Below the pieces are notes generated by a model. That model was not told where the DNA came from, searched no databases, and was given only the letters and a program-made list of their open reading frames with translations. From Halorubrum sp. JWXQ-INN 858 (GTDB lineage Archaea > Halobacteriota > Halobacteria > Halobacteriales > Haloferacaceae): 64,000 nucleotides of DNA. The stretch lies in the NCBI RefSeq assembly GCF_009806985.1, contig NZ_WUAX01000011.1, positions 1 through 64,000 of the forward strand, written 5' to 3'. The translations under genes and the position numbers were made by a program. How positions within the stretch are numbered: the first letter of the stretch is position 1; every line of letters begins with the position of its first letter. This document shows positions 25,723 through 30,060 of the stretch, one piece after another.

Positions 25723-26781
25723 ATGATCGAGGCGCGAGGGTTGGCGAAGACGTACGGCGACTTCGCGGCGGTCGTCGACAGCAGCTTTTCGGTCGACGAC
25801 GGCGAGGTGTTCGGGATCGTCGGCCCGAACGGGGCCGGCAAGACGACGACGCTGAAAACGCTCGCCGGGCTCATCGAGCCGACCGCCGGCGAGGCCCGCG
25901 TCGCCGGTTTCGACTGCGGGGACCCCGAGATGCGCCGCCGGCTCGGCTTCCTCCCGGAGGAGTCGCCGCTGTACGAGGGGATGACGCCGCTGTCGTACCT
26001 CCGCTTCTTCGCCGACCTGTACGACGTGCCGGGCGAGGTCGCCGACGAGCGCATCACGGCGGCGCTCGATCGGTTGGCCCTCGACCATCGGGAGCGTCGT
26101 CTCGGCGACCTCTCGAAGGGGATGAAACGGAAGGTCGCCATCGCGCGGTCGCTCGTCAACGACCCGGACGTGTTGATCTACGACGAGCCGGCCTCCGGGC
26201 TCGACCCGCTGACGACGAACGTCGTCCTGGAGTTCACTCGCGAGCTCAGCGCCGAGGGGAAGACCGTCGTCTTCTCCGCGCACAACCTGTACCACGTCGA
26301 GTCCGTCTGCGATCGGGTTATCATCATGAACGAGGGACGGATCGTCGCCCGCGGCAGCGTCGACGCGATCCGTGAGCGCCACGGCGAGACGACCTATCAC
26401 GTCGACACCGACGTCCCGGTCGACCTCCCGGAGGCCGCCGATGAGCGAACGGACGCGAGAACCGACGACACGGGAACGAACACGAGAACCCACGACACGG
26501 GAACGAACGCGGGAACCGACGACACGGGAACGAACGCAGAGGCCGCGGGCGACCGCTTCCGGACCGTCGTCGCGACGATGGACGCGGTCGAACGGGTCCG
26601 TGAACGCGCCGCCGCGAACGGCGGGAGGGTCGTCGACATCCGGACGGACGACCCGAGCCTCGAGGACGTCTTCCTCGACATCGTCGGGCAACCGATGCCG
26701 GGCCGACGGCGGCGCGGCGAGACGGAGTCGCCGACGACGGACACCGACGAGGGACCGAGCGCGGCGGAGGGAACGGAGTGA
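25723..26781 (+). CDS. ABC exporter ATP-binding protein
   Basis: A 352-residue ABC ATPase. Walker A GPNGAGKT is at 34-41, the signature DLSKGMKRK around residue 130, and Walker B with the D-loop LIYDEPASGLDP around 147-159. Residues 1-225 form the ATPase; the rest contains an Asp/Thr linker (about 245-272) made of three nine-residue repeats, then a small domain (TVVATMDAVERVRERAAANGGRVVDIRTDDPSLEDVFLDI) common in ABC-2 exporter ATPases. The ATG follows CTTTAACC by about 25 bases. It overlaps the next gene by four bases (GTGA), starting a three-gene operon with two permeases. Confidence 0.9.
   Translation: MIEARGLAKTYGDFAAVVDSSFSVDDGEVFGIVGPNGAGKTTTLKTLAGLIEPTAGEARVAGFDCGDPEMRRRLGFLPEESPLYEGMTPLSYLRFFADLYDVPGEVADERITAALDRLALDHRERRLGDLSKGMKRKVAIARSLVNDPDVLIYDEPASGLDPLTTNVVLEFTRELSAEGKTVVFSAHNLYHVESVCDRVIIMNEGRIVARGSVDAIRERHGETTYHVDTDVPVDLPEAADERTDARTDDTGTNTRTHDTGTNAGTDDTGTNAEAAGDRFRTVVATMDAVERVRERAAANGGRVVDIRTDDPSLEDVFLDIVGQPMPGRRRRGETESPTTDTDEGPSAAEGTE
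26458..26538. repeat. 27-bp in-frame tandem repeat (3 units) in the ABC ATPase gene
   Basis: Units lie at 26458-26484, 26485-26511 and 26512-26538, each containing CGACACGGGAACGAAC. They encode the nine-residue repeat RTDDTGTNT and variants in the linker after the ATPase core. Confidence 0.9.
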
Positions 26782-28862
26782 TCGGACGGCTCCGGCGGGT
26801 CCTCCGGATCGCTCGGTGGGAGGCGTCCGGCGTGACGGACGGGATCGACCGCGGGACCGCGGCCGCGGCGCTCGTGCTCCTGCTCGTCGCCGGCACCGTC
26901 GTCGGCGCGGGGCTCGCGGCGGGCGTCGCGGGCCTCGACGTCGACCGGGACGTCTACCGCGTCGGCGTCGACGCCGAGTCGCCGTACGCCGAGGCGGTCG
27001 CGGACGAGCCCGCCTTGACCCCCGTCGTGACCGATCGGGCGACGGCCGCGGGCGCGGGCGGCGGGAACGGGGTAGCGACCGACGGGAGCGCGAGCGGGAG
27101 CGACGGGACCGGGGACGCGGCCGGACCGACGCTCGGCGAGCACGTCGACCTGTTGGTCGTCCACGGCGACGCCGACCGGGTCGTCGTCCGGGCGGCCGAC
27201 TCTCCGAAGGGCGAGGCGGCGGCCGCGACGTTCCGCGAGGCGGTCGAGTCGCACAACGAGCGACGGATGGCCGCGGAGGGGAACCGAACCGCCGCGTTCC
27301 CGGTGACCGTCACGCTCCAGTACGTCGGGCGCACGGGCGGGCAGACGGACGAGGGGACGCTCGGGGTCGCGGACGGCGACGGAGCCGATGAGGGTGGGGA
27401 CGAGGCGGACGGAACCGACGAAGGAGGGGAAGCTGGGAGCGTGACGGGCGGCGAGGCGAGGGACGACGACGCGGATGACGACGCCGGCGGCGACGCGGAC
27501 GATGACCTCGCGGTCCCGTCGGTCGGCGGCGGCGTCTTCGGGGCCGGATCCGTCGGATCGCCGGGATCGATCACGCCGCCGTTCCCGTTCGCCTCGCTCG
27601 TGTTGGCGTTCGCCTTCCTCGTCCCGATGAACTTCCTCATCCAGGCGTACGGGTCCTCGATGCTCAACGAGCGGATCAACCGCCGCGGCGAGCTGCTGTT
27701 GGTCGCGCCGCTCGCGCCCGTCGACGTCGTCGCCGGGAAGACGCTCCCGTACGTCGCGGCCGCCGCCGCGGTGACCACGGTGGTCGCGCTGGCCGTCGGC
27801 GGCGGGGTCGTCTCCGTGCTCGCGGTGTTGCCGATCGCGGCGGCGTTCCTCGGCGCGACGTTCGTGGGCGCGATGTTCGCGCGGTCGTTCAAGGAGCTCA
27901 CGTTCGTCACGGTCGCGGTGAGCGTCCTGTTGACGACGTACGCGTTCGTCCCCGCCGTGTTCACGGACGTGACCCCGGTGGCGCTCATCTCGCCGCTGAC
28001 GCTCGTCGTCTTGGACCTGCAGGGCGAGGGCGTCTCGCTCGGCGCGTTCCTGTTCTCGACCGGCCCCGTCCTGCTGGCCGCCGGGCTGTTGTTCGCGCTC
28101 GGGGCCGGGGTGTACCGCGAGGAGGACCTGTTCACGCAGAAGCCGGTGCCGCGGAAGCTCCTCGACGCGCTCGCCGTCCGGCTCCGACCGCTCCCGCCGC
28201 CGGGACGGTCGACGCTCGGGCCTGCTGAGGCGTCCGGCTCGAGCGACGCGAGGGGATCGACCGACGCGTCCGGCTCGAGCGACGCGAAAGGATCGACCGA
28301 CGCGTCCGCCCGGACCCCGAACCGGCGCTCGTGGCTCCGAGGGTTCGCGACGGTCGCCGTCGTCACGGCGTGTACGATCCCGTTCGTCTTCGTCGCCGAG
28401 CTGCTTCTGGTCGCCGTGCTCTTCGCGCTGCCGGTCACCGTCTCGATCCCGACGCTGCTCGTCACGATCGCGTTCGTCGAGGAGGTCGCCAAGAGCCTCC
28501 ACCTGTACGCGGGCTTCGAGCGCGGGGTGTTCGCCCGGACCGACCACGTCGCGATCGGCGTCGGGCTCGCGTCGGGGATCGGCTTCTTCCTCGCCGAGAA
28601 GGCGACCGCGGTCGTCCACGCGATCGGGCTCACGGAGCTGTACGTCGGCCGCGCCGCGTTCGGGGCCGTCGCCGGTCTCGACTCGCTCCCGCCCGCGCTC
28701 GCGATCGGGCTGTTCCTCGCGCCGCTGGCCCTCCACGGCTTCGCCACCGTCGTCGCCGCGGTCGGCGCGAGCCGGGGTCGGACGTACTACGCGCTGACGC
28801 TCGCGGCGGCGACGGCGATCCACGCGGCGTACAACGTCGGGGTGGTGAGCCTTCATGGGTAG
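26778..28862 (+). CDS. ABC-2 type permease fused to a PrsW-like intramembrane protease
   Basis: A 694-residue two-part membrane protein with a GTG start inside the ATPase stop. The N-terminal part is an ABC-2 permease (NatB-like): one helix near 33-53, a large external region (about 55-265, acidic and Gly-rich after 200), then a helix cluster at 270-460. After a Ser/Asp linker with 36-bp repeats, residues about 515-694 form a second helix bundle with PrsW-type motifs: EEVAK (568-572), FFLAE (Glu607), His653 and HAAYN (682-686). PrsW proteins are glutamic intramembrane proteases. The fusion suggests that export and membrane proteolysis are linked. Catalytic activity is untested. Confidence 0.82.
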   Translation: MIGRLRRVLRIARWEASGVTDGIDRGTAAAALVLLLVAGTVVGAGLAAGVAGLDVDRDVYRVGVDAESPYAEAVADEPALTPVVTDRATAAGAGGGNGVATDGSASGSDGTGDAAGPTLGEHVDLLVVHGDADRVVVRAADSPKGEAAAATFREAVESHNERRMAAEGNRTAAFPVTVTLQYVGRTGGQTDEGTLGVADGDGADEGGDEADGTDEGGEAGSVTGGEARDDDADDDAGGDADDDLAVPSVGGGVFGAGSVGSPGSITPPFPFASLVLAFAFLVPMNFLIQAYGSSMLNERINRRGELLLVAPLAPVDVVAGKTLPYVAAAAAVTTVVALAVGGGVVSVLAVLPIAAAFLGATFVGAMFARSFKELTFVTVAVSVLLTTYAFVPAVFTDVTPVALISPLTLVVLDLQGEGVSLGAFLFSTGPVLLAAGLLFALGAGVYREEDLFTQKPVPRKLLDALAVRLRPLPPPGRSTLGPAEASGSSDARGSTDASGSSDAKGSTDASARTPNRRSWLRGFATVAVVTACTIPFVFVAELLLVAVLFALPVTVSIPTLLVTIAFVEEVAKSLHLYAGFERGVFARTDHVAIGVGLASGIGFFLAEKATAVVHAIGLTELYVGRAAFGAVAGLDSLPPALAIGLFLAPLALHGFATVVAAVGASRGRTYYALTLAAATAIHAAYNVGVVSLHG
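28230..28301. repeat. 36-bp in-frame tandem repeat (2 units) in the permease-PrsW linker
   Basis: Units lie at 28230-28265 and 28266-28301, followed by a partial third copy. They encode the Ser/Asp/Gly-rich hinge (ASGSSDARGSTD) exactly between the permease and protease halves. Confidence 0.85.
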
Positions 28863-29907
28863 CCGATTGACGGTCGCGAAACGCGAGCTGGCGGGGCTCA
28901 GAGCCGAGAAGACGATCTTGTTGGCGGTCGGGATCCAGCTGTTCATCGCCGCGTTCTCGTCGTTCCTCGTGGTCGGGCTCGTCTCGATGTACGACCCGGC
29001 CGGGCTCGACGGCGCGGAGATCGAGATCGCCGGGGCGGGCGAGTCGATCGACGACCTCGAACGCGCCGCCGCCGACGTTCCCGGCGCGTCGGTGACGCCG
29101 TACAACGACGTGCCGGCCGCCCGGGCGACGTTCGAGAACCGCGCCGCCGACGCGGTGGTGGTCGCGAATCCCGACGACGGCGGCGGGGTGTCGGTGGTCG
29201 TCACCGCGCCCGACTCGAGCGTCGAGACGACCGTGATCGTCGTCCAGCTGCGGGAGGTGTTGCGGAGCTACGAGTCGAACGAGCGGGCCGACCGGGCCGC
29301 GTTCCTCTCCGAGACGCCCCTCCCGCTGCCCGACCGGACCGGGTCCAGCCCGTACTTCACCTTCACGTACACCGTCCTGATCCCGCTTTTGGTGTTCCTC
29401 CCGGTGTTCGTCTCCGGGTCGATCGCCGTCGACTCGATCACCGAGGAGATCGACCGCGGCACCCTCGAACTGCTCCGCGTCGCGCCCGTGACCCTCGCGG
29501 AGATCGTCGACGGGAAGGCGATCGCGGCGGTCGTCATCGCCCCCGGACAGGCGCTGGCGTGGCTGCTCCTGTTGGGAGCGAACGGGACCCCCGTCGCCAA
29601 CGTCGGGCCGATCCTCCTGCTGATGACGGCGTTCACGACGCTCGTCGTCGGGCTCGCGGTCGCCATCGCGCTCGTCTCGCCGGACCGACGGGCGGCACAG
29701 CTGCTGTACTCGATCGCCGTGCTCGCGCTGTTCGGCGGGGCGACCGCGATGGCCGGCGGCCCGACGAACACGGTCGCGCGGCTGGCGATCGACAGCGCCG
29801 ACGCCGCGACGTTCCTCACGGTCGGCGTCTACGTCGCGCTCGCGGCCGCCACGTACCTCGGCGTCCGTCGGTTCGTCTCCGCTGGCGGGCTCGGAAGCGA
29901 GATCTGA
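28855..29907 (+). CDS. ABC-2 type permease (second exporter subunit)
   Basis: A 350-residue ABC-2 permease. One helix lies near the N-terminus (about 16-42), then an external domain of about 120 residues, then five or six helices between 160 and 345. Conserved pieces are EEIDRGTLELLRVAPVTLAEIVDGKAIA (about 196-223) and the paired GLAVAIALVSPDRRAAQLLYS. The ATG overlaps the end of the fusion gene by eight bases, so the three genes form one operon and the exporter is probably a heterodimer of this and the permease-PrsW protein. Cargo unknown. Confidence 0.88.
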   Translation: MGSRLTVAKRELAGLRAEKTILLAVGIQLFIAAFSSFLVVGLVSMYDPAGLDGAEIEIAGAGESIDDLERAAADVPGASVTPYNDVPAARATFENRAADAVVVANPDDGGGVSVVVTAPDSSVETTVIVVQLREVLRSYESNERADRAAFLSETPLPLPDRTGSSPYFTFTYTVLIPLLVFLPVFVSGSIAVDSITEEIDRGTLELLRVAPVTLAEIVDGKAIAAVVIAPGQALAWLLLLGANGTPVANVGPILLLMTAFTTLVVGLAVAIALVSPDRRAAQLLYSIAVLALFGGATAMAGGPTNTVARLAIDSADAATFLTVGVYVALAAATYLGVRRFVSAGGLGSEI

Positions 29908-29952: not shown

Positions 29953-30060
29953 TCAGGTCCGGTCGACCTGTCAGATCCGGTTAGCCAGTCAGATCCGGTC
30001 GACCTGTCAGATCCGGTTAGCCAGTCAGATCCGGTCGGCCGGTCAGATACGATCAGACCC
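29953..30060. repeat. 18-bp tandem repeat, six units, between convergent genes
   Basis: Six 18-base units lie at 29953-29970, 29971-29988, 29989-30006, 30007-30024, 30025-30042 and 30043-30060. They alternate between TCAGATCCGGTCGACCTG and TCAGATCCGGTTAGCCAG forms; the last is degenerate and includes the stop codon of the leftward MFS gene. No spacers, so not CRISPR. Confidence 0.9.

Follow-up and report, generated by a model that had tools for sequence, protein, structure and literature searches.

In the haloarchaeon Halorubrum sp. JWXQ-INN 858 a single gene encodes an ATP-binding cassette (ABC) exporter permease of the ABC-2 type that continues, in the same polypeptide, into a PrsW-type domain, a predicted intramembrane protease. 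The gene lies on contig NZ_WUAX01000011.1, positions 1 to 64,000 of which were analyzed (this whole stretch of 64,000 nucleotides is called the window below), between the genes of an ABC ATPase and of a second ABC-2 permease. A preliminary description of the window had proposed that an ABC-2 permease in a three-gene exporter unit carries a fused domain of the PrsW family, with all motifs present, and this was confirmed by means of relatives of the protein and sequence profiles. The reading frame and motif positions given there (26778..28862; EEVAK from residue 568, FxxxE at 607, His at 653 and HxxxN at 682-686) are exact, and the motif residues of the window protein read EE568-569xxK572, F603xxxE607K608, H653 and H682xxY685N686. 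The parts of the unit are the following.

25723..26781, plus strand: ABC ATPase (NatA/DrrA-like), 352 residues; open reading frame, PF00005 at E 3.8e-29
26778..28862, plus strand: fusion protein, 694 residues, ABC-2 permease, linker and PrsW-type domain (predicted intramembrane protease); open reading frame and relatives
26778..28178, plus strand: ABC-2 permease half, residues ~1-467, predicted
28179..28322, plus strand: linker, residues 468-515, enlarged by a tandem repeat with a 36-bp unit
28323..28859, plus strand: PrsW-type domain, residues 516-694, five predicted transmembrane (TM) helices, N-in/C-out
28855..29907, plus strand: second ABC-2 permease, 350 residues; open reading frame, PF12698 at E 1.4e-16

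The fusion gene starts with a GTG codon and overlaps the reading frame of the ATPase by 4 bases and that of the second permease by 8 bases. In the ATPase the Walker A, Q-loop, LSKGM signature, Walker B and H-loop are all intact.

The C-terminal domain belongs with PrsW

The preliminary description had named a profile comparison with PrsW and CPBP as a check of its proposal. The fused domain was compared pairwise, using hhalign, with profiles of 31 stand-alone haloarchaeal PrsW and of 29 CPBP sequences. It lands in PrsW, in a match that spans 150 columns and brings all four motifs into register (Prob 95, E 2.6e-8), and not in CPBP (Prob 3.4). The controls stayed low, with Prob 0.1-1.3 for five column-shuffled profiles, and Prob <1.4 each for the second permease, the protein's own permease half and the major facilitator superfamily (MFS, 2 sequences).

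The motifs were followed through two sets of aligned fused proteins. Set 1 comprises 88 distinct proteins of at least 560 residues, obtained from 105 matches after removal of 10 short or cut and 7 identical sequences, and it is biased, many of its loci having been found with patterns that include two of the motif peptides. Set 2, compiled as a repeat against this bias, starts from 50 loci of the phylum that were selected by profile and contributes another 37 distinct rows, one of them being the window gene. Ten residues (E568, E569, K572, F603, E607, K608, P649, H653, H682 and Y685) are invariant in 88/88 rows of set 1 and in 37/37 rows of set 2. Thus, all 125 rows possess the EExxK of a PrsW membrane helix (E568/E569/K572), the FxxxE of the second helix (F603 and E607) and the histidine of the next-to-last core helix (H653), which is absent from Rce1 (PMC4602095; this and the other papers are cited here on the basis of excerpts). 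In the HxxxD/N motif of the last core helix H682 is invariant, and position 686 is Asn in 83 and Asp in 5 rows of set 1, and Asn in 33 and Asp in 4 rows of set 2. None of the 125 rows has lost the EEVAK residues or the histidine, a loss that the preliminary description had named as speaking against its proposal.

The joint alignment of 125 rows has 21 invariant columns, ten of which lie in or beside the protease motifs, within 26% of the length. Twenty divergent rows are only 22-26% identical to the window protein in the permease half and 23-32% identical in the PrsW half. With ten residues in or beside the motifs invariant despite such low identity, the protease site is at least as constrained as the transporter, and, judged from these alignments, the conservation of the motifs is not due to chance.

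One point weighs against the proposed architecture: in a family scan at E <= 1 the window protein alone gave no match to PF13367 (PrsW). Nor did it alone match an ABC-2 family, so that both halves were assigned through the relatives and the profile. The C-terminal domain has five predicted TM helices and not the eight of PrsW; eight are stated for "most" members of that family and are hence not strictly defining (PMC3482391). Among the relatives, PF13367 recognizes 15 of 42 domain sequences when matches up to E 10 are counted, and in a panel of 59 haloarchaeal genomes it detects 24 of the 43 fused loci, 20 of them above its curated cut-off of 23.5 bits.

Assignment to CPBP/Rce1 (PF02517) was considered and rejected, since the domain carries EExxK instead of EExxxR and PF02517 matches a single one of the 42 members (E 0.35), in addition to the low hhalign probability. 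The two families are not unrelated, as the preliminary description had it: in the literature PrsW, CPBP/Rce1 and APH-1 are treated as distantly homologous to one another (PMC6588880, PMC4602095, PMC3482391). Our own PrsW and CPBP profiles match each other around one motif (Prob 87, 23 columns only). Sequence searches of solved structures with both profiles yielded nothing useful, and Foldseek searches with both models gave no hit with E <0.001, only the VIA-align re-comparison being informative. From these sequence comparisons the C-terminal domain is of the PrsW type, and it is a predicted intramembrane protease.

The fused domain resembles the PrsW family (PF13367; MEROPS M82; prototype B. 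subtilis PrsW) in having the four motifs in order, the same predicted orientation and a profile match of 150 columns. It differs in its five predicted helices against the usual eight, in the fusion to an ABC-2 permease and in its low direct Pfam score. The genome of the window organism also carries a stand-alone PrsW (L001, C15:63823-64389), in which the second motif ends in EN, whereas it ends in EK (K608) in the fused domain.

Permease half and predicted topology

The ABC-2 permease family (PF12698) is matched by 39 of 42 relatives of the fusion protein, and the N-terminal half combines this family match with six predicted TM helices and an adjoining ATPase, as expected of an ABC-2 exporter permease. 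In the predicted layout TM1 (25-50) is followed by an extracytoplasmic domain (51-270) and by TM2-TM6 (271-447). The model has low confidence in an acidic stretch (184-264), and a conserved cytoplasmic helix (449-467) ends this half. The second permease is presumed to be the heterodimer partner of the fusion protein.

The topology was checked by counting Lys+Arg per ten residues along the predicted loops in the 125 rows. The permease loops gave, in order, 2.47, 0.74, 1.82, 0.43, 2.50 and 0.28, the linker 1.35, the PrsW loops 0.18, 1.88, 0.22 and 1.82, and the last five residues 0.87. This alternation fits 6+5 helices with the N-terminus inside, the C-terminus outside and a cytoplasmic linker. 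Two of the eleven helices, at 314-339 and at 553-581 (the one with EExxK), left no peak in a crude hydropathy scan, and the helix count therefore rests on the models. The protein is accordingly modeled with 6+5 membrane helices, the linker in the cytoplasm and the PrsW core oriented as in stand-alone PrsW. Compared by eye with L001, the fused domain keeps the catalytic core and, by our reading, has neither helices 1 and 2 nor the final helix. The entry from the cytoplasm that helices 1 and 2 give in stand-alone PrsW would here come from the permease.

Distribution of the fusion and integrity of the gene unit

A protein search returned at least 1533 relatives at E <= 0.001 among at least 7996 scored candidates, and the best 120 were examined. 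Several of these are named "PrsW family intramembrane metalloprotease" by NCBI and others "ABC transporter permease". Among the best 120 matches of each protein search, those with an organism name were haloarchaea, methanogens and their relatives, or "Euryarchaeota archaeon". At least 74 loci, distributed over Halobacteria and Methanosarcinales-type archaea, were located by a scan of species genomes. In the sampled class the fused gene was matched in 147 of 194 genomes and 49 of 65 genera (G186 only at 2.9e-4), and in the sampled phylum, Halobacteriota, in 150 of 294 genomes and 63 of 107 genera; the phylum count includes G014, G032 and G044, which matched only at 9e-4 to 4e-5, had no match in the class search and are probably other permeases. 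The fusion is therefore common and old rather than a local oddity. The survey of haloarchaeal genomes proposed in the preliminary description thus shows that it is not rare. A sequencing or annotation artefact was rejected as an explanation, given the recurrence across many loci and genomes.

The gene order is conserved as well. Among 67 haloarchaeal loci, 64 carry the ATPase gene immediately upstream of the fusion gene and in the same orientation, and 65 carry the second permease immediately downstream, the five misses being matches at contig ends; the 67 include some genes twice (from two collections) and the window gene itself. At 37 methanogen-type loci the second permease is downstream in 35, and the ATPase is upstream on the opposite strand, up to ~2.6 kb off, in 32, so that the unit is kept even with the ATPase on the other strand. 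Short stretches fetched around 20 divergent loci contained the second permease in 20/20 and the ATPase in 16/20. Compared by hand, 43 of the 59 haloarchaeal genomes have the fused gene together with the second permease and 15 have neither, so that presence or absence agrees in 58 of 59. From this pattern the three genes behave as one unit, presumably encoding a heterodimeric complex. G056 lacks the fusion gene and retains only part of the second permease, within a frame of 219 residues (G056:C1:1602520-1602984), as though the unit were in decay there.

The preliminary description had suggested an anti-sigma-like protein or lipoprotein cargo as the substrate, which is conjecture, and no substrate was found. 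No neighbor conserved across the phylum, and thereby a candidate substrate, was present among the 40 clusters listed. Recurrent neighbors, a BatD/DUF11 protein and MscS, were seen only at methanogen-type loci. At 15 of these loci (L042, L044, L052 and L061 among those concerned) a protein of ~610 residues follows the unit, the one scanned matching BatD and DUF11, and at 14 a gene lies between the ATPase and the fusion gene, MscS-type in the one scanned.

Stand-alone PrsW proteins (~130-160 bits) occur in 58 of the 59 haloarchaeal genomes, genomes without the fusion among them; the sole PrsW match in G021 is the fused gene. The PrsW-like protein of H. volcanii is HVO_0408 (PMC9263693). In Halobacterium salinarum a PrsW family protease gene, VNG2625C, of either the fused or the stand-alone type, is reported to be upregulated at the translational level only (PMC7394353).

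The linker repeat is a late insertion

The 36-bp tandem repeat in the fusion gene (28230-28308) was confirmed. The preliminary description had taken it, as a hinge, to be consistent with a fusion point, and this part did not hold. Measured from D463 to P535 in the 125 rows, the linker has 20-21 residues in 87 rows and 18-27 in 4 more, 35-53 in 32 (mostly Halorubrum) and 71 in two copies of the window gene. The closest relative among the matches listed, 95% identical, lacks one 12-residue repeat unit, which indicates that the repeat arose by recent slippage. Read from these alignments, it expanded recently, within a lineage that has longer linkers, and its interpretation as a fusion scar was rejected, the repeat being a late insertion into a linker of 20-21 residues in most rows. 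A 27-bp tandem repeat (3.4 copies, 26447-26537) is found within the C-terminal part of the ATPase gene, and in-frame repeats thus occur in two genes of the unit. Another 36-bp tandem repeat (2.7 copies, 29953-30048) lies close behind the second permease, between it and a convergent MFS-type gene.

A possible cleave-and-export mechanism and its alternatives

The closest functional parallel is found in Firmicutes. To process and secrete lipoprotein-leader peptides, S. aureus requires the protease Eep as well as the ABC transporter EcsAB (PMC7157817). In B. subtilis the loss of Ecs inhibits RasP-dependent intramembrane proteolysis (PMC2996298), and a membrane-cleaning role has been suggested for Ecs (PMC2996298; PMC7478892). 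As in the archaeal unit, an intramembrane protease is paired with an ABC exporter, there acting on the same peptides (PMC7157817, PMC2996298). The Firmicutes partners differ in that they are separate proteins and the protease is a site-2 metalloprotease, and no membership of the fusion in those families was found by sequence. The archaeal fusion may be a one-molecule form of this pair, in which Eep/RasP cleaves and EcsAB/PptAB exports.

The archaeal complex is predicted to consist of two ATPases, the fusion protein and the second permease, and we infer that it is catalytically active, takes up its substrate out of the membrane and exports the product. A substrate helix (the remnant of a signal peptide, a tail anchor or a single-span protein) would enter the PrsW cavity laterally and be cleaved at the EExxK/H/HxxYN site, and the released hydrophobic peptide would pass to the adjoining ABC-2 pathway. 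In addition, the linker may transmit permease movements driven by ATP and so gate the protease. That the complex cuts membrane-embedded peptides or protein stubs and then pushes the fragments out with ATP is the reading we prefer, at a likelihood that we put a little short of even. More tentatively, such a cleave-and-export machine could be old within Halobacteriota, with ATP driving both the opening of PrsW and the expulsion of peptides, for the clearance of signal-peptide and anchor stubs from the archaeal membrane or the secretion of peptide signals. For such signals we know of no export system of this kind in archaea.

ABC parts can work as mechanical switches, as in NosDFY and FtsEX. The ABC part could likewise switch the PrsW site without any export, giving an ATP-gated protease that would make regulated cuts of the site-1 type in a membrane protein with a signalling role; we consider this rather unlikely. 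Sorting of surface proteins, where the protease would trim the C-terminal membrane anchor of exported proteins in a myxosortase-like manner and the ABC part would handle or clear the tail, appears improbable. In its favor, the CPBP relative MrtX does such sorting (PMC11980579), and a ~610-residue protein follows the second permease at 15 methanogen-type loci, with BatD and DUF11 matches in the one scanned and N-terminal signal-like and single C-terminal hydrophobic stretches in the two proteins read. Against it, no member of this cluster occurs in the 37 haloarchaeal loci compared, and no signature motif was seen ahead of the C-terminal helix in either of the two proteins. An ordinary ion or drug exporter with the PrsW bundle as an inactive scaffold, as in APH-1, is very improbable, since a dead scaffold should lose its motif residues, of which ten in or beside the motifs are invariant throughout, and since the fused domain has EExxK where APH-1 has QExxR (PMC6588880).

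Relation to known systems and implications

The design of the fusion has a counterpart in the databases. By name and profile, the NCBIfam model NF041647 (ABC transporter permease subunit/CPBP intramembrane protease) likewise describes a single chain in which a glutamate-type intramembrane protease comes after an ABC-2 permease; its protease is CPBP, whereas that of the fusion is PrsW. The window protein does not match this model, and none of 29 haloarchaeal and 14 control genomes reaches its cut-off of 435 bits. PrsW is known to be joined to other domains, such as toxin domains, PilZ, FHA, DUF2324 and others (PMC3482391), and no ABC transporter partner is named in the excerpts of that paper. 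Two reviews of haloarchaeal membrane proteases (PMC9263693, PMC4343526) treat PrsW briefly and, in their excerpts, mention no fusion. No published description of a PrsW-ABC or CPBP-ABC fusion was found in the literature searched, which lacks most subscription journals and was covered in part. Databases already pair both domains, through the NCBI PrsW names and through joint PF13367 and PF12698 annotations (P0206, P0239). So far as we could tell, the fusion has been seen by automated annotation and has no description in print within the literature searched.

The coupling of an ABC exporter to an intramembrane protease has been known from the genetics of Firmicutes, as a matter of separate partners; here both reside in one polypeptide, with a short linker in most relatives. 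The fusion thereby makes it testable whether an ABC exporter feeds, gates or cleans an intramembrane protease, and it is a candidate for how archaea may dispose of, or signal with, peptides released from the membrane.
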